Of a stretch of 64,000 nucleotides of DNA, positions 3,051 to 13,063 are shown piece after piece. A model generated the notes under the pieces. That model ran no database searches and was not told the DNA's origin. It worked only from the letters and a program-made list of their open reading frames with translations. This stretch comes from Armatimonadota bacterium. Its GTDB lineage: Bacteria; Armatimonadota; Fimbriimonadia; Fimbriimonadales; Fimbriimonadaceae. The DNA lies in assembly GCA_037138755.1 (NCBI GenBank), contig JBAXHT010000001.1:95805-159804 (forward strand). Reading direction: 5' to 3'. The translations under genes were made by a program, and so were the position numbers. The first letter of the stretch is position 1. Every line of letters begins with the position of its first letter.

Positions 3051-4721
3051 CTAACCTCCGCCTTTCACCTTGAGCGGAAGCCGCGGCAAGAAATTGATCG
3101 GATTGCCAAACTGGAATTGCGGCGCATCCAGCATGATGATTGGATTGGTTTGGTCTAGAGTCACGTTGAGATTCTGGTTCGTGCAGATTTCCCGTAGATC
3201 CTTTCCATCACTGTAGTAGAAACGAAGGCCACGAAGAGTGAATGAATCTGGATTCCAGGTCCCACCGCCGGGACCTGGTCGAATGCCGATCCCCAGGGCC
3301 ATGATCCGGCTGATAAATGGAGTGAGATTAGATTCTACGGTCGGTACCGGTACGGGTGCGATCCAACCAAACCGAAGGGTTGAATTGGCTGGAACGGAGG
3401 AGCCTCGCCAAAGTCCGGTTAATCCCGGTCGGTCAACGCCTTTGCCCCAGTTGACAACTTGGACGACCTTTTCCGGCTGGCTCCACATATCCTTGGGTTT
3501 AAGAATCGTAATCAGCTCCAACGTTGAGTCATCACGAAGATCGTCTGGCCCGGCCGTAATCTCAAAGCCCAGACTTGCCGGAATGTCCTTTGGAAGAACA
3601 AGTGGGGTCAGGCTCGGAGTTGACCAACGTGTAGCATTTCCACTGAATTTGGCGCCCGGGGTCCAGCATCCCCACTCGCGTGTGAGGCGATCTCCTTCTA
3701 CGGCGCTGACTCGAAGCTGAGCCATATCTGCTCGATTCACCCGGAGACCATCGCCGGTGTTGACTCCGCAGTTGATTCCGTATCGTCGGATTTCCGTTCG
3801 ATTTACGCCCGGCACCTCGAGATACAGATTGAGTTCTCGACGCCCGTTAGCATTGAACGGCGCAAACTGGTTGAGCGCGTAAGTCTCCTTTGACTCGGTC
3901 ATCCCCCTTGGAACTCCGCTGGAGGAAAGTCTTTGCGCCGCACGCCAAGGCGTCTCAATTCGCCGTCCGTCGGCAAGGTCCACGTAGAACTGCCAATTCG
4001 CAGTGTCGTCCCAATCTCCCGCCGCGTTGCCTTGTGTGTTTCGAAACAGGCTGGAGGAAGTCACCGTTGCGCACAGCCGGTTGGTTCTAGTGAACTGCTC
4101 GTCTTTAAACGTCATCACTTCGCCACTTTTCCACTCATCGAAGGCATTAGCCGTGGTGAACTCATAGTTGACGGTGTCGTCAAACAGTAACTCTTCCTTT
4201 GCGTAGCCACCCTGCAAGGTCTCTGAGGCAAGTACTTGGACTCGGCCAATACGCCACTTGTCCGGCTTGAGAAGCTGGCCATCGCCCTTGTGAAGTTGAG
4301 TTGTAATTCCGATGTGCTTGATGCGACCGACCTCGAGCCAATCGGGGATGTCCCAGTGCCACGCAAGCATTGTGTTTCCTGCAAGTGGTACACCCGGCAC
4401 CGCCAGGGGAGCAGCCGCACGCGAGCCGTCTTCGAATTCAAAGAACAGAGATGCTGAGCCGCCGTCTCGCAGATCATCTCCCCCGGAAAGAACCGACACA
4501 AACATGTGCTTGAACTTGCGGAGAGGCTGTCTGGGTGCCCTCGGTAGCGGATTCGCATTATTCCCTGTCGCTTTGTTCGGGCTCAGTTTGAGGACGTCCA
4601 GCGAGGGGCGAAACTTCATATTGAAGATCGCGTGAGGTGGAGGGTTGAATTGTTGGGAGAGAATCGCGGGCTGCGGACGAGTCAGCTCATTTGCAATGAC
4701 GGCGAGAGTAATCAAGGACAT
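3051..4721 (-). CDS. Unknown protein with three repeated beta-rich modules
   Basis: A 556-residue protein that I cannot assign to a family. By eye it contains three related modules at about residues 73-165, 214-340 and 385-505. Modules 1 and 3 open with SGGDDLRD and AGPDDLRD. All three end with a 'GI...(x)n...D...L..L' segment: GITTQLHKGDG, GINCGVNTGDG and GIGIRPGPGGG, each followed by a PD- or AD-containing strand. The alternating hydrophobic pattern suggests beta-sandwich domains, as in extracellular or carbohydrate-associated proteins. The first ~15 residues are mildly hydrophobic and could be a weak signal peptide. The start is supported by a TAGAAT box exactly 6 nt upstream. It is divergent from the GH5-like gene. 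Confidence 0.7.
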   Translation of the reverse strand: MSLITLAVIANELTRPQPAILSQQFNPPPHAIFNMKFRPSLDVLKLSPNKATGNNANPLPRAPRQPLRKFKHMFVSVLSGGDDLRDGGSASLFFEFEDGSRAAAPLAVPGVPLAGNTMLAWHWDIPDWLEVGRIKHIGITTQLHKGDGQLLKPDKWRIGRVQVLASETLQGGYAKEELLFDDTVNYEFTTANAFDEWKSGEVMTFKDEQFTRTNRLCATVTSSSLFRNTQGNAAGDWDDTANWQFYVDLADGRRIETPWRAAQRLSSSGVPRGMTESKETYALNQFAPFNANGRRELNLYLEVPGVNRTEIRRYGINCGVNTGDGLRVNRADMAQLRVSAVEGDRLTREWGCWTPGAKFSGNATRWSTPSLTPLVLPKDIPASLGFEITAGPDDLRDDSTLELITILKPKDMWSQPEKVVQVVNWGKGVDRPGLTGLWRGSSVPANSTLRFGWIAPVPVPTVESNLTPFISRIMALGIGIRPGPGGGTWNPDSFTLRGLRFYYSDGKDLREICTNQNLNVTLDQTNPIIMLDAPQFQFGNPINFLPRLPLKVKGGG

Positions 4722-4806: not shown

Positions 4807-5832
4807 ATGTTGAGCGTAGTGATGAGCGGGGTTCTTTTGACAAGTCTAAACAACCAGTGGACTGCAGAGCAGGCAAACAAGTGGCAGGCGAAGCAGCCTT
4901 GGGTTGTTGGGGCGAATTTCTTGCCTTCGACTGCGATCAACCAGTTGGAGATGTGGCAGGCAGAATCCTGGGATCCGGTGACCATTGATCGCGAGCTCGG
5001 ATGGGCGGAAGGGATTGGGATGAACACGGTTAGGGTTTATTTGCATGATCTGGCTTACCAGGCTGATCCAAAAGGATTTAAGAAGCGAATGTCTTCTTTT
5101 TTGCAGATTGCTTCGAAGCACAAAATTCGACCGTTGTTTGTTTTCTTCGATGACTGCTGGAATCCGAATCCTTCTATCGGGATGCAACCGGCGCCCAAGA
5201 AGGGGGTTCATAACAGCGGCTGGGTTCGATCGCCGGGAGATTCTTCGCGGTCATTGGCTGAGTTTCCGAGGTTGAAGGTTTATGTTCAGGACATCCTTCG
5301 AACTTTCAGCAAAGACAAGCGGGTTTATCTTTGGGACCTTTACAACGAGCCGGGGAACTCGGGTTATGAACTCAAATCAGTTCCGTTGCTAAACGCAGTT
5401 TTTGATTGGGCGCAGGAGGTTCGGCCTTCTCAGCCGCTGTCGGTTGGGGTTTGGTATGGCAACGAAACTTTGAACAAGATACAGCTAGATCGGAGCGATG
5501 TGGTGACCTTCCATAACTACAACGACACTGCTTCTCTTTCGGGGCAGATTGCTTCGTTGAAGGCGCTGGGACGGCCGGTGGTTTGTACGGAGTGGATGGC
5601 TCGGACCAACAATTCACGGGTACTGACCCATCTTGGTGTGTTCAAAGATGCCGGCGTCGCGGCGATCAACTGGGGACTGGTTTCTGGAAAGTCGAACACG
5701 ATTTTCCCCTGGGGGTCGAAGGAAGGTGGCGAGGAGCCTAAGGTTTGGTTCCACGATTTGTTCCGGCAGGATGGGACGCCGTTTGATGCGGCGGAGATTG
5801 CGGAGTTTCGGCGGCTGACTGGGCGATCGTAG
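4807..5832 (+). CDS. GH5-like (cellulase/mannanase superfamily) glycoside hydrolase
   Basis: A 341-residue TIM-barrel glycosidase of clan GH-A. LWDLYNEPGN carries the conserved Asn-Glu (acid/base) and VVCTEWMART near the C-terminus the second catalytic Glu (nucleophile). The N-terminal section with GMNTVRVYLHDL and the later HNYND fit the same fold. Close homologues are often labelled 1,4-beta-xylanase or endo-mannosidase, but the substrate cannot be fixed from sequence. The first ~14 residues are hydrophobic and could be a short export signal. It stands alone: divergent from the modular unknown protein and convergent with the caspase-like gene. Confidence 0.8.
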   Translation: MLSVVMSGVLLTSLNNQWTAEQANKWQAKQPWVVGANFLPSTAINQLEMWQAESWDPVTIDRELGWAEGIGMNTVRVYLHDLAYQADPKGFKKRMSSFLQIASKHKIRPLFVFFDDCWNPNPSIGMQPAPKKGVHNSGWVRSPGDSSRSLAEFPRLKVYVQDILRTFSKDKRVYLWDLYNEPGNSGYELKSVPLLNAVFDWAQEVRPSQPLSVGVWYGNETLNKIQLDRSDVVTFHNYNDTASLSGQIASLKALGRPVVCTEWMARTNNSRVLTHLGVFKDAGVAAINWGLVSGKSNTIFPWGSKEGGEEPKVWFHDLFRQDGTPFDAAEIAEFRRLTGRS

Positions 5833-5835
5833 ATA

Positions 5836-5880
5836 CCCCTCGCAGGAGAGGGTTCGGTGAGCGAAGTGAACCGGGGGAGC
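5836..5880. repeat. Imperfect palindromic intergenic repeat (degenerate)
   Basis: Between two convergent genes. CCCTC/GAGGG (5837-5841 with 5848-5852) and GGTTC/GAACC (5851-5855 with 5868-5872) form two adjacent small hairpins. The block resembles the widespread extragenic 'CCCTC...GAGGG...GGTTC...GAACC' stem-loop repeats of many bacteria. Only one copy is visible here, so its status as a repeat is inferred. Confidence 0.35.
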
Positions 5881-5974
5881 GGGAGGAGTCTTGTCGGTTC
5901 TGGAGTTACACGTGGTTAAAGTCTGGTAGTTTCGAACTCTCTCCAGCCCGCCGGACTGCTGCTTGCCCACGAAT

Positions 5975-7147
5975 TTACGGGTTCGGCCGGCCAAGTGAAG
6001 TACTGATCGGGCGGATCCGACTTGGGCCGAACCACTCATCCTTCGTCGGAGGCAAACCGTCCACCCGACATCCATGCAAGCTCTCGAATGTGGCAAGTAC
6101 GGTCGCTGGGTGCCACTTGCCATCCGTACCACTTTTCACCTCGACCCTATGTCCAACTTTATACCGTGGGAACTGGGGCACTCTGACATCATCTGCTGAA
6201 ACGACCTCGTCCTCATCAGACTTCGTGTTCTTCGTGTAGTGAATCTTGAACCCATCCGGGGTGACGGCGAGAATCTCGGCTCGGTACCACTTGCCTTTCC
6301 ACCTCACCTCAACAAGCTCTCCAACCCTATCGGGTGCCTGTCCCTTAGCAACCGTGAGCCGCATGTTGAGATCAAACGCTCCTGAGGTTGCGAACATCGG
6401 CTTACCTTCTGCGGCATGCGCCATGTATCGCTTGGTGTACCACGCAAGCTCCCCAAAAGTCACATAGCCATCCTTGTCCAAGTCCACGACCGGATTTCCG
6501 CCAAATCCCCGAAGCAGGCTCTGATAGAATCGGCACCCACTTGATGCAGATTGCTGAGAGAAGGTCGAACTGAGGGCGCCATAGCTAATTCGACTTCGGC
6601 GGCGATCGATCAAGTCCACAACTCCACCCGAGTAACAGCTATCGATGAACAACAGCGCATGACTTCCGCGGAAGTTCGTCTCAATCGCATCAATCAACCA
6701 AGTCTTCTGCAAGCTCCGGTCATGCATGCTCAGGATGTTGCGTCCGCTATGCCCGCTGAAGGCAAAGATCAGCATTTCGCCCGGGCGGCTTTGGCGAAGG
6801 AAAGCGGCGAACTGGTTTGACACGTTCTGGGCGGTCGCCTGCTGTTTGGTCAACAGCATGATCTGATTTGCGGGTACCCCAAGCTCTCGGAACTGATCCA
6901 CAAATGCCGACGAGGGAATCTCAAGCCACGATGCGGGCGGCGCACTCTCTCCCTCATAAAGCAGAACGTCAATGAAGAAGACCCGGGTCTTTGCGGGCGT
7001 CCATCCGAGTTGGTTTGGCGTTTGAGCGAATGCGGTTGCCCCGCATGAAAGCAAATAAAGCAATACTAACCAAACCCGATACAGCGATGTCTGGTTGATC
7101 CTCTCGATTGCTTCCATGAGGACTTTGAAGTTCCGTCCGGACCACAT
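5975..7147 (-). CDS. Secreted caspase-like (C14) protease with EF-hand and two Tudor-like modules
   Basis: A 390-residue protein. A signal peptide is likely (hydrophobic stretch ~residues 24-41 ending AFAQ); the start may instead be the internal ATG at 7117. Residues ~50-215 form a caspase/metacaspase fold with His133 (FSGHSG) and Cys171 (IDSCYSGG), both catalytic. Residues 222-233 (DLDKDGYVTFGE) match a complete EF-hand calcium loop. Two C-terminal Tudor/Agenet-like beta modules follow: ~274-323 (VEVRWKGKWYRAEILAV) and ~329-380 (VEVKSGTDGKWHPATVLA). Caspase homologues are known; this domain order is unusual. Calcium dependence and export are inference. The substrate is unknown. Confidence 0.85.
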   Translation of the reverse strand: MWSGRNFKVLMEAIERINQTSLYRVWLVLLYLLSCGATAFAQTPNQLGWTPAKTRVFFIDVLLYEGESAPPASWLEIPSSAFVDQFRELGVPANQIMLLTKQQATAQNVSNQFAAFLRQSRPGEMLIFAFSGHSGRNILSMHDRSLQKTWLIDAIETNFRGSHALLFIDSCYSGGVVDLIDRRRSRISYGALSSTFSQQSASSGCRFYQSLLRGFGGNPVVDLDKDGYVTFGELAWYTKRYMAHAAEGKPMFATSGAFDLNMRLTVAKGQAPDRVGELVEVRWKGKWYRAEILAVTPDGFKIHYTKNTKSDEDEVVSADDVRVPQFPRYKVGHRVEVKSGTDGKWHPATVLATFESLHGCRVDGLPPTKDEWFGPSRIRPISTSLGRPNP

Positions 7148-7387
7148 GATCTCTCATTCCCTCGGCCGCCTCCGCTCATCAGTTGCCGGCGGCCACCCGT
7201 GTTGTTTGAAGATACGTCACACATTGAGACGCGGTTGGCGTTACTCCCCGGAATGGCTCAAGATTATCTTTTTAGCCTGAATGATCCCCAATTTGAACGA
7301 GGACACCCCGTGAACGCATACGACAATTATCGTACAGAACACATTTAGAAGAATGTGAAGGAGCTTCTGGATGCAGATCTCTATGAA

Positions 7388-8083
7388 TCAGTCCTTAAAC
7401 AGCGGCGTGAATTCCAGCGGTGTCTCGCCTTCTCGATCCACATCGAACGCTCCTGCCCTCTCACGATCGACAACGACCTTGTGGAACTCCTCGTTCACAA
7501 AGTGGACCGCCGCTCCATCCGTAGCGGCGTAGCCGGGGGCGATGGTTTGTTCTCGGAGCATTTGGCGCAGGAGGGGTTTACGTTCGGGTTCGGAGTCGTA
7601 GTGGGGGGTGAAGCTGCCGGGGAGCCAGCCTAGGCAGGGCATGACCTGGATTCCGGGGCCGAGGGAGTCGGTGGTGCACTGCTCGAACCAGATGTTGGCT
7701 CCGGCGGAGATTCCGGCGAGGATGGTGCCTTGGTTGTAGGCTTTGCGCAGGATCGTGTCGATTCCCCAGGCTTGCCAGAGGAGCATCATGTTCATGGTGC
7801 TGCCTCCGCCTACGAAGATGAGGTCTTGGTCGAGGAGCATTTCTTCAGGGGTTCCGGTCCAGGTTTGGGATCGGAAGAGTTGGAAGACGCTGGTTTGGGC
7901 GCCGAGGGATTTGTAGGCGGTTTCGAATTTGGCGATGTAGTCGAGCGAATCTCCACTGGCGGTGGGGATAAAGCAGACTTTTGGTTTGCTGGCGGCGCAG
8001 AGGGAGAGGAGGTACTCGTCGAGGCGAAGGTTTTCGAGGCTGGACCCGAAGCCTCCGCCGCCGAGGGCGATGATCTGGCGCAT
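7388..8083 (-). CDS. pepE: Peptidase E-like (family S51) peptidase
   Basis: A 231-residue cytosolic class-I-amidotransferase-fold serine peptidase. IFVGGGSTMNMM and GISAGANIWFE (nucleophilic Ser in GxSAG) are the S51 signatures, and a later His in SFTPHYDS fits the catalytic triad region. Dipeptidase E cleaves N-terminal Asp-X dipeptides; members outside enterobacteria vary in specificity, so the aspartyl preference is inferred. No cyanophycin genes are nearby, although cyanophycinase belongs to the same family. It lies downstream of the small 93- to 87-residue acidic gene on the same strand. Confidence 0.85.
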   Translation of the reverse strand: MRQIIALGGGGFGSSLENLRLDEYLLSLCAASKPKVCFIPTASGDSLDYIAKFETAYKSLGAQTSVFQLFRSQTWTGTPEEMLLDQDLIFVGGGSTMNMMLLWQAWGIDTILRKAYNQGTILAGISAGANIWFEQCTTDSLGPGIQVMPCLGWLPGSFTPHYDSEPERKPLLRQMLREQTIAPGYAATDGAAVHFVNEEFHKVVVDRERAGAFDVDREGETPLEFTPLFKD

Positions 8084-8131
8084 TTGCTGGTTGGGGGTTT
8101 GGGGCGAGGGTTGTTCCCACCCCTTGAGGTG

Positions 8132-8395
8132 TTATTGAGCTTCTTCGGTTGATTCGTCGGCTGGGGCAGAGTCGCCTAGGAATTTGTCGAGCATTCCGTC
8201 GATCGCGCTACCTTCGGGGGCAAATTTGTTTTTGAGTTCGTCGAGCATGTCGCCGTGGAGGGCGTCGTCGATTTGGCCTTCGATGCTGTCGGGGATCTTA
8301 TCTCGGAATTTATCGAGAACGTCTCCGGCTTTGCCTTCGAGTTCTTCGTGGGTCATGCCGAATTTGGAGGCGATTTGGTTGAGGAAGTCGCTCAT
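8132..8395 (-). CDS. Small acidic helical protein of unknown function
   Basis: An 87-residue protein (if it starts at MSDFLNQI, 8395; an upstream ATG at 8413 would add six residues). It is rich in Asp, Glu and Lys and predicted helical: LNQIASKFGM, DVLDKFRDKIPDSIEGQI and MLDKFLGD form amphipathic stretches. The tail is acidic (ADESTEEAQ). The repeated 'L-x-x-F' pattern resembles small phage-shock/antitoxin-like or CsbD-like stress proteins, but I do not recognise a family. TACAAT lies 9 nt upstream of the chosen start and there is no Shine-Dalgarno sequence. Its neighbours on the same strand are pepE downstream and a 49-residue ORF upstream. Confidence 0.6.
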   Translation of the reverse strand: MSDFLNQIASKFGMTHEELEGKAGDVLDKFRDKIPDSIEGQIDDALHGDMLDELKNKFAPEGSAIDGMLDKFLGDSAPADESTEEAQ

Positions 8396-11525: not shown

Positions 11526-11584
11526 GAACATCACGAAATATTTTGTGCGGAGTAGTTTCTGTTCCTCTTCGACAGGAAAGAACT

Positions 11585-11590
11585 TATAAT
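11585..11590 (+). promoter_or_regulatory. Leaderless-type -10 box (consensus TATAAT, 6 nt before start)
   Basis: A perfect TATAAT, then CTCAAC, then the ATG at 11597. No Shine-Dalgarno sequence. This box decides the start of the erythromycin-esterase-like gene against an upstream alternative at 11543. Confidence 0.7.
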
Positions 11591-11596
11591 CTCAAC

Positions 11597-13063
11597 ATGC
11601 TTGCGGCGCTCAGTTTGGCTACAGTTCTTTCCCTCCAAGGAAACTGGCTGGGTCAGAACGCCATTCCGCTCTCTCCTTCCGGAAAATTCTCGCAGTATGA
11701 CGACCTGAAAAAACTACGTTCTATGCTGGATGGCGTTCGCATCGTCGGAATGGGAGAGGCGACGCACGGAACTCGGGAATTTTTTGAGACCAAGCACCGA
11801 ATGTTCCGCTTCCTCGTGGAGGAGATGGGGTTTCGGGTCTTCATTCTCGAAGCCTCGATGGCGGGGTGCCTAATGATGGATGACTACGTTTTGGGGAAGA
11901 AAGTCGATGTGAAGGAGGCGATCTATCGGCAGCAGTTTTGGACTTGGTCAGTGGTAGAGCTGAGGGAGTTGCTGGAGTGGATGCGGGAGTACAACCGGAC
12001 CCACGCGGAGAAGTTGAGGGTGTTCGGTAATGACATGCAGAACTCTGAAGATCCGATGGTCTACTTCTTAAGCATCAAAGGGCGGCTTAAGAACTTCCCA
12101 AATGACACCAAGTTCCCTACGCAGGACGCTGAGTGGGAGAGCTGGCTACCACTAATCAAGGCTCAGTTGGGAGAGGAGGAGTTCAGGATTTCTGAGCTAG
12201 TTCTTGCTACCTATCGTCAAGCAAAGGGGAACGACTGGATTTCGGAGTTGCGCCTACTTCAGCAGCGGGTGATTCCGAAAATGCAAGAAACGTTCTCTGA
12301 CGCTGAGAAACTCCTGAAGGAATTGCCGAACCTCGATCCGGCGGCAAGAAGCGGATTGGAATTTGTGGATCAGCACAAAACAAAGCTCGTCCAGGAGGCG
12401 GAAAACACGAGAGAGGGGGCTCAAAAAATGAAAGAGTGGAAAGTGGCACTAATCGCCGCGCAATCGAAAGCGACGTCCGACAAAAAGCTCTCCGAACGCA
12501 TTCGCCTCCAAGTTGATCTCCTGGATTTTCTACTCTTCATCGGGACAATGCCGAAGGGCTTGAACCCAGGAAACTATCGTGACCAGTGCATGGCAACCAA
12601 CTCTACTACGATTATCGAAACGGTTCTGCCGAGTAGTAAGGCAATGATCTGGGCGCACAACGGGCACATTGGTCGTGCCAAGTTTGCGCAAGGATTCGAG
12701 GCGATGGGTTGGCACCTTGATAATCTGTGGAAGGAAAAGTACGTACCCTTAGCGTTCGCATTTTCCGAGGGATCGTTCCGAGCATCAGACGGGAATCAAG
12801 TCAAAACTCACAAGGTAGGCGCCTCGAAGGGTGGGCTCGAAACCCTTTTGCGCAAGGAAGGTCCAAAAGAAGACTTCTTCCTACCAGTACGCGGCCCCAG
12901 CGGCCTCCCAGATTTCCTCCGCCCCGACCTGACTTCGCGGCAGATTGGAGCAATCTGGAACGCACAAGTTGAGAAGGTGTCGACGCAGCCGTTCAACCTG
13001 CCCTTGTGGTATGACGGACTGTTCTTCTTTCATAAGACGACTTCGGCACGAGCGCTAAACTAG
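11597..13063 (+). CDS. Erythromycin esterase family protein, exported
   Basis: A 488-residue protein. A short signal peptide (MLAALSLATVLSLQG) precedes the erythromycin-esterase/EreA-like fold. The signature region is RIVGMGEATHGTREFFETKH, holding the conserved Glu-His pair and the second Glu/His used for water activation; WAHNGHIGR near residue 355 is the second conserved His motif. Family members hydrolyse macrolide lactones, but most environmental homologues have unknown substrates, so resistance should not be assumed. The start is set by TATAAT 6 nt upstream. Its TAG stop shares CTAG with the stop of the convergent dehydrogenase. Confidence 0.83.
   Translation: MLAALSLATVLSLQGNWLGQNAIPLSPSGKFSQYDDLKKLRSMLDGVRIVGMGEATHGTREFFETKHRMFRFLVEEMGFRVFILEASMAGCLMMDDYVLGKKVDVKEAIYRQQFWTWSVVELRELLEWMREYNRTHAEKLRVFGNDMQNSEDPMVYFLSIKGRLKNFPNDTKFPTQDAEWESWLPLIKAQLGEEEFRISELVLATYRQAKGNDWISELRLLQQRVIPKMQETFSDAEKLLKELPNLDPAARSGLEFVDQHKTKLVQEAENTREGAQKMKEWKVALIAAQSKATSDKKLSERIRLQVDLLDFLLFIGTMPKGLNPGNYRDQCMATNSTTIIETVLPSSKAMIWAHNGHIGRAKFAQGFEAMGWHLDNLWKEKYVPLAFAFSEGSFRASDGNQVKTHKVGASKGGLETLLRKEGPKEDFFLPVRGPSGLPDFLRPDLTSRQIGAIWNAQVEKVSTQPFNLPLWYDGLFFFHKTTSARALN

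Follow-up and report, generated by a model that had tools for sequence, protein, structure and literature searches.

What kind of protein joins a caspase-like peptidase, an EF-hand and tandem Tudor-like modules behind an export signal, and is the calcium-type loop a genuine part of the enzyme? This question is raised by a 390-residue protein encoded in the window, by which we mean the whole 64,000-nucleotide stretch of DNA analysed here and to which all positions refer unless a locus is named. Our analyses revealed that the combination of caspase fold, EF-hand and tandem barrel is real, conserved and laterally distributed. The general protein type was already published in 2018, and the interesting part is the invariant EF-hand embedded in the peptidase fold.

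Overall architecture

The comparisons employ a set of eight proteins, consisting of the window protein and seven full-length homologues with all of its parts, from another class of the same phylum, Verrucomicrobiota and Chloroflexota (Table 1). In the contig search, a single-protein query found nothing, and a query made of a two-sequence alignment found homologues.

Table 1. Features of the locus and full-length homologues of the encoded protein
Feature	Position	Strand	Basis or remark
390-aa caspase-like protein, likely exported (P0001)	5975..7147	minus	ATG at 7147, stop 5975-5977; intact ORF
Likely signal peptide, residues 1-41	7025..7147	minus	Inspection and hydropathy; leader ...YRVWLVLLYLLSCGATAFA/QTP, end ATAFA/QTP
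Clan CD cysteine peptidase fold, residues 52-266	6350..6994	minus	AlphaFold2 model, structural comparison, profile match, Pfam
His133, catalytic dyad (SGH133)	6749..6751	minus	Invariant, 8/8 homologues
Asp169	6641-6643	minus	Also invariant
Cys171, catalytic dyad (DSC171YSGG)	6635..6637	minus	Invariant, 8/8 homologues
EF-hand helix-loop-helix, residues 204-244	6416..6538	minus	AlphaFold2; repeated in homologue model
12-residue EF loop DLDKDGYVTFGE, residues 222-233	6449..6484	minus	D222 (position 1) and E233 (position 12) invariant, 8/8
Tudor/Agenet/chromo-like module 1, residues 273-325	6173..6331	minus	Agenet 4e-9 (Pfam), profile, models
Tudor/Agenet/chromo-like module 2, residues 328-383	5999..6166	minus	Pfam, profile, models
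~1.56-kb segment with the gene	5827..7386	.	Missing in close relative, both flanks abutting
L035/L070 (same locus)			Full-length homologue, another class of the window's phylum
L069			Full-length homologue, Spartobacteria MAG
L068			Full-length homologue, Chloroflexota MAG
L074, L075			Full-length homologues, two further Verrucomicrobiota genomes
L080, L081			Full-length homologues, two further Chloroflexota genomes

The AlphaFold2 model, built on a four-sequence alignment (mean pLDDT 78, pTM 0.75), displays a clan CD fold over approximately residues 52-266 followed by two barrels, and a further model, for which the Spartobacteria homologue served as query, adopts the same arrangement (pLDDT 81). 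The dyad residues sit where strands 3 and 4 end: strand 125-132 runs up to H133, and strand 163-169 stops before C171. In the homologue alignment, Ser173 and Gly174 are as invariant as the dyad and Asp169 (8/8), and inspection places an acidic residue at Cys+7 in seven of the eight proteins. The fold matches legumain (Z 17.5), metacaspase-4 (Z 15.9), GPI8 (Z 15.6) and caspase-8 (Z 15.2), within an overall range of Z 14.4-17.5 for legumain, metacaspases, GPI8 and caspases (rmsd mostly ~3-4 over ~180-214 residues). Foldseek with the model puts a calcium-bound metacaspase on top, with FXR Tudor pairs close behind. At the sequence level, the first part of the eight-homologue profile matches metacaspases and the bacterial protein GSU0716, and Pfam Peptidase_C14 reaches 20.1 bits in the window protein against a cut-off of 21.4, with five of the seven homologues above it. 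An earlier note on this DNA had proposed a caspase fold with His133 and Cys171 as catalytic residues; the dyad is intact and the fold is supported by the model and the structural matches.

The same note had called the protein exported, which is supported as likely by its hydrophobic leader: the 15 residues starting at residue 27 have a mean Kyte-Doolittle value of 2.05, and the putative cleavage site after residue 41 was placed by eye. A hydrophobic N-terminus is found in five of the eight proteins. The other three are leaderless caspase-EF-Tudor proteins from Chloroflexota (L068:232-1281, L080:1459-2538 and L081:1447-2553), which start directly at the catalytic domain. The in-frame sequence upstream of L068 holds stops, and the L080 and L081 frames have no upstream hydrophobic stretch.

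The EF-hand within the peptidase fold

In all eight proteins, the loop has D at position 1, D/N at 3, D/N/S at 5, I/V at 8 and E at 12. The corresponding pattern, D.[DN].[DNS]..[ILV]...E, has a single match in the window, which is DLDKDGYVTFGE itself (1 in 40,355 residues, over all stop-to-stop frames of at least 100 aa), and the shuffled window protein yields it with a probability of 0.004. Because the pattern is shared at the same alignment column in all eight full-length proteins, the EF loop is not a product of chance, an explanation that the shuffles and the window-wide scan also rule out. The Pfam EF-hand models give sub-threshold scores in the window protein.

The AlphaFold2 model places a helix at residues 204-215, the loop, and a second helix at 231-244, with pLDDT ~90 over residues 211-240 of the window protein. 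EF-hand geometry is present, as judged from the secondary structure of the two models rather than from coordinates. The full 12-residue loop that the earlier note had recognised thus stands, together with its helix-loop-helix setting, but its placement after the caspase fold does not. In the model, the loop is followed by strands 251-255 and 263-266, which belong to the peptidase fold, and the EF-hand therefore lies inside the catalytic fold. As modelled, it is embedded between strands 5 and 6 and adjoins the expected substrate loop. One EF loop per chain was seen; a lone EF-hand is unusual, and most EF-hands pair. Judging from strand order in the model, residues 194-203 after strand 5 would occupy the place where clan CD enzymes keep the substrate loop (PMC4357240).

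Four C14 proteins of the same phylum (L045, L047, L048 and L049) have an EF-type loop that follows the catalytic motif by ~65 residues (DRNRDGAITFME and similar).

The tandem Tudor-like tail

The C-terminal part of the AlphaFold2 model consists of two separate beta barrels, at ~278-320 and 334-381. Pfam Agenet and Tudor-knot match all eight proteins, and the eight-homologue sequence profile matches the FXR1/FXR2/FMRP tandem Tudor across both modules, as the FXR tandem Tudor also does by fold. The two SH3/Tudor-like modules suggested earlier are accordingly borne out by Pfam, the profile and the barrels in both models, and a C-terminus formed by a single unrelated domain is ruled out by the profile match, AlphaFold2 and Foldseek.

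The barrel fold and the pattern G...WY..A.I...HY.G....DEW are shared with the FXR1/FXR2/FMRP tandem Tudor, the PHF20/PHF20L1 Tudor and MBT/chromo-barrel domains. However, proteins of the FXR, PHF20 and MBT types are intracellular and associated with chromatin or RNA, and the cage positions of module 2 are mostly non-aromatic in the window protein. By inspection, module 1 keeps Y288 and Y304, whereas module 2 has H346, V, L and K. Ligand reading may be weak here because the aromatic-cage positions of module 2 are mostly lost; most homologues retain several aromatics at their cage-like positions (inspection).

Two exported proteins from the kin of Verrucomicrobiota, L076:1228-2535 (+) and L077:1477-2601 (+), carry three and two Tudor/chromo-like modules, respectively, and no peptidase. 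L077 also matches a lipocalin-like domain weakly (2.7e-4).

Relation to known proteins

Kaur, Iyer, Subramanian and Aravind described in 2018 that bacterial chromo-like domains occur consistently in secreted proteins, that a caspase-like peptidase is one of their commonest linkages, in planctomycetes, cyanobacteria, bacteroidetes and chloroflexi, and that the EF-hand is among their other partners, at least as the text of that paper has it (PMC5906684). According to the same text, the domains were proposed to bind wall or matrix peptides and to anchor peptidases there. The window protein resembles these fusions in joining a likely signal peptide, a caspase-like peptidase and Tudor/chromo-like barrels, and the present family differs from those in the text by its leaderless Chloroflexota members and by phyla that include the window's own and Verrucomicrobiota. 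The leaderless proteins also conflict with the rule of consistent secretion as worded there. In the text of that paper, as distinct from its figures and supplement, we found no description of an EF-hand inside the peptidase fold of chromo-like fusions or of leaderless Chloroflexota members (PMC5906684).

An EF-hand motif is recorded in seven archaeal orthocaspases (PMC6426788). With orthocaspases such as MaOC1, the window protein shares the caspase p20 core and the His/Cys dyad, and with the archaeal ones the EF-hand motif (PMC6426788). Unlike them, it adds a tandem Tudor-like tail; in the window protein, the EF-hand lies between strands 5 and 6 of the catalytic fold. The architecture, which the earlier note did not recognise, is therefore not without precedent: secreted fusions of caspase and chromo-like (Tudor-like) domains were published in 2018, as the text of PMC5906684 shows, and archaeal EF-hand orthocaspases are on record (PMC6426788). 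A survey of prokaryotic metacaspases counted 71 Pfam domain types and names neither EF-hand nor Tudor/Agenet in its main text (PMC3501461). The window protein is like the metacaspases AtMC4, CgMCA1 and TbMCA2 in its fold (AtMC4, Z 15.9) and in the Asp at Cys-2. However, the metacaspase calcium site is formed by four Asp residues (PMC4357240), while the window protein has an EF-hand.

Secreted bacterial chromo-like proteins, often fused to caspase-like peptidases, are the proposed stock of eukaryotic chromatin readers, and no assay of any of them emerged from the literature consulted here. The window protein is a compact member, suited to testing whether calcium can gate bacterial caspase relatives at a site different from that of metacaspases, and whether modified peptides outside the cell are ligands of bacterial Tudor-like barrels.

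Possible mode of action

Many metacaspases are calcium-activated, and calcium is plentiful outside the cytoplasm. There is, in our estimation, about an even chance that the window protein acts as an exported, Arg/Lys-preferring cysteine protease, supported by calcium and docked by its barrel pair on an extracytoplasmic peptide, where we infer the calcium dependence, the substrate, the ligand and the export. It would be a clan CD endopeptidase of the orthocaspase type, with an intact His/Cys dyad and an EF loop inserted right behind the substrate-cleft loop. After export, the EF-hand would bind calcium, and the bound ion might order or activate the active-site side of the fold. In the metacaspase TbMCA2, calcium shifts the active-site loop, and several clan CD families are activated or accompanied by it (PMC4357240). 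The invariant acid two residues before the catalytic Cys may select Arg or Lys at P1, as in metacaspases; this specificity is proposed because Asp169, at Cys-2, is equivalent to Asp211 of TbMCA2, a residue of the S1 pocket (PMC4357240). The docking site of the barrel pair would be a peptide in the cell wall, envelope or extracellular matrix that is basic or carries some other mark, and it could belong to the cell itself or to a neighbour.

The most serious alternative, which we place well short of an even chance, is that the EF loop has a structural role only, stapling the fold with calcium or without metal, and that the enzyme is active at any calcium level. Such a role would suit a lone EF-hand, surroundings in which calcium is always abundant, and the related orthocaspases of the same phylum, some of which have a comparable loop at about +65 relative to the catalytic motif and many of which have none. 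The characterised orthocaspase MaOC1, whose autocatalysis is calcium-independent (PMC8283722), also counts against calcium activation. On the other hand, proteins from three phyla with ~30-37% identity all keep positions 1 and 12 unchanged, which is more than a mere turn requires, and in the model the loop lies directly against the substrate-loop region.

A binding scaffold or pseudo-enzyme, in which the barrel pair is the useful part and there is no peptidase in practice, is very unlikely. In its favour, the window protein has GHS instead of the GHG motif, by loss of the second Gly, with ~8 residues missing from the loop after His133, and Tudor-only exported proteins are known (L076 and L077). 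However, His133, Cys171, Asp169, Ser173 and Gly174 do not vary in any of the eight proteins. We regard as the least probable a legumain/GPI8-like (C13) action, in which the enzyme would be specific for Asn/Asp or would transfer peptides to an acceptor at the surface (transpeptidation). Legumain and GPI8 are among the best structural Z-scores and weak Peptidase_C13 matches occur, but metacaspase-4 scores close to them, metacaspases lead by sequence profile and Foldseek, C14 matches 8/8 members against 3/8 for C13, and metacaspases have the Asp at Cys-2 as their S1 residue.

The docked, calcium-supported protease may be extended from this protein to the three-phylum family, with the in-fold EF-hand serving as a different calcium switch from the four-Asp site of metacaspases, the barrels aimed at a modified (e.g. 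methyl-lysine) peptide outside the cell, and the family moving laterally. Taken as a whole, this broader reading seems rather unlikely. An export-linked calcium switch cannot be the logic of the entire family, because the three Chloroflexota homologues do not have a signal peptide.

Distribution and genomic context

A genome search found a single copy of the gene in its own 3.27-Mb genome; the 19 further congeneric genomes searched, and nearly all of the class, gave no match. Another genus of the same family has short caspase-only relatives, and one of these, L002, retains the EF loop. Searching the class for Agenet retrieved no other case at E 0.001, a threshold that misses this gene too (best single stretch 0.005), so that weak copies are poorly covered by this result. 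In a quick caspase-domain tree (SH-aLRT only, midpoint root), the eight proteins cluster with the short relatives in a single group with full support, within which the window protein pairs with L075 from the kin of Verrucomicrobiota (support 99) and not with the protein of its own phylum.

The close congener L108 aligns with window positions 4856-5826 (89%) and 7387-8200 (91%), with a gap of 43 bp between the flanks, and the genes on either side of the missing segment have 92 and 95% protein identity in the close congener. A second congener has an unrelated ORF there. Given the empty site in a close relative and a nearest protein in the tree from Verrucomicrobiota, the architecture is laterally distributed, and the gene appears to be a single-gene cassette that has moved laterally. 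Acquisition by this genome is more probable than repeated loss, a direction that we infer.

Across congeners, the spot between the GH5-like gene and the S51 peptidase gene contains this gene, an unrelated gene or nothing. A conserved operon partner was not found by ORF inspection, and the GH5-like hydrolase and S51 peptidase neighbours are unlike those of L069 and L070. A defence system was rejected: the generic PADLOC caspase match is weak (6e-7, residues 91-194) and no defence neighbours were noticed. A phage or plasmid origin was likewise rejected, with 0 matches in phages and 1 distant caspase in plasmids. Elsewhere in the window, positions 3051-4721 (-) encode a protein of 556 aa that no Pfam family matches at E 0.001, and positions 11543-13063 (+) encode an erythromycin-esterase family protein (PF05139, 3e-47).
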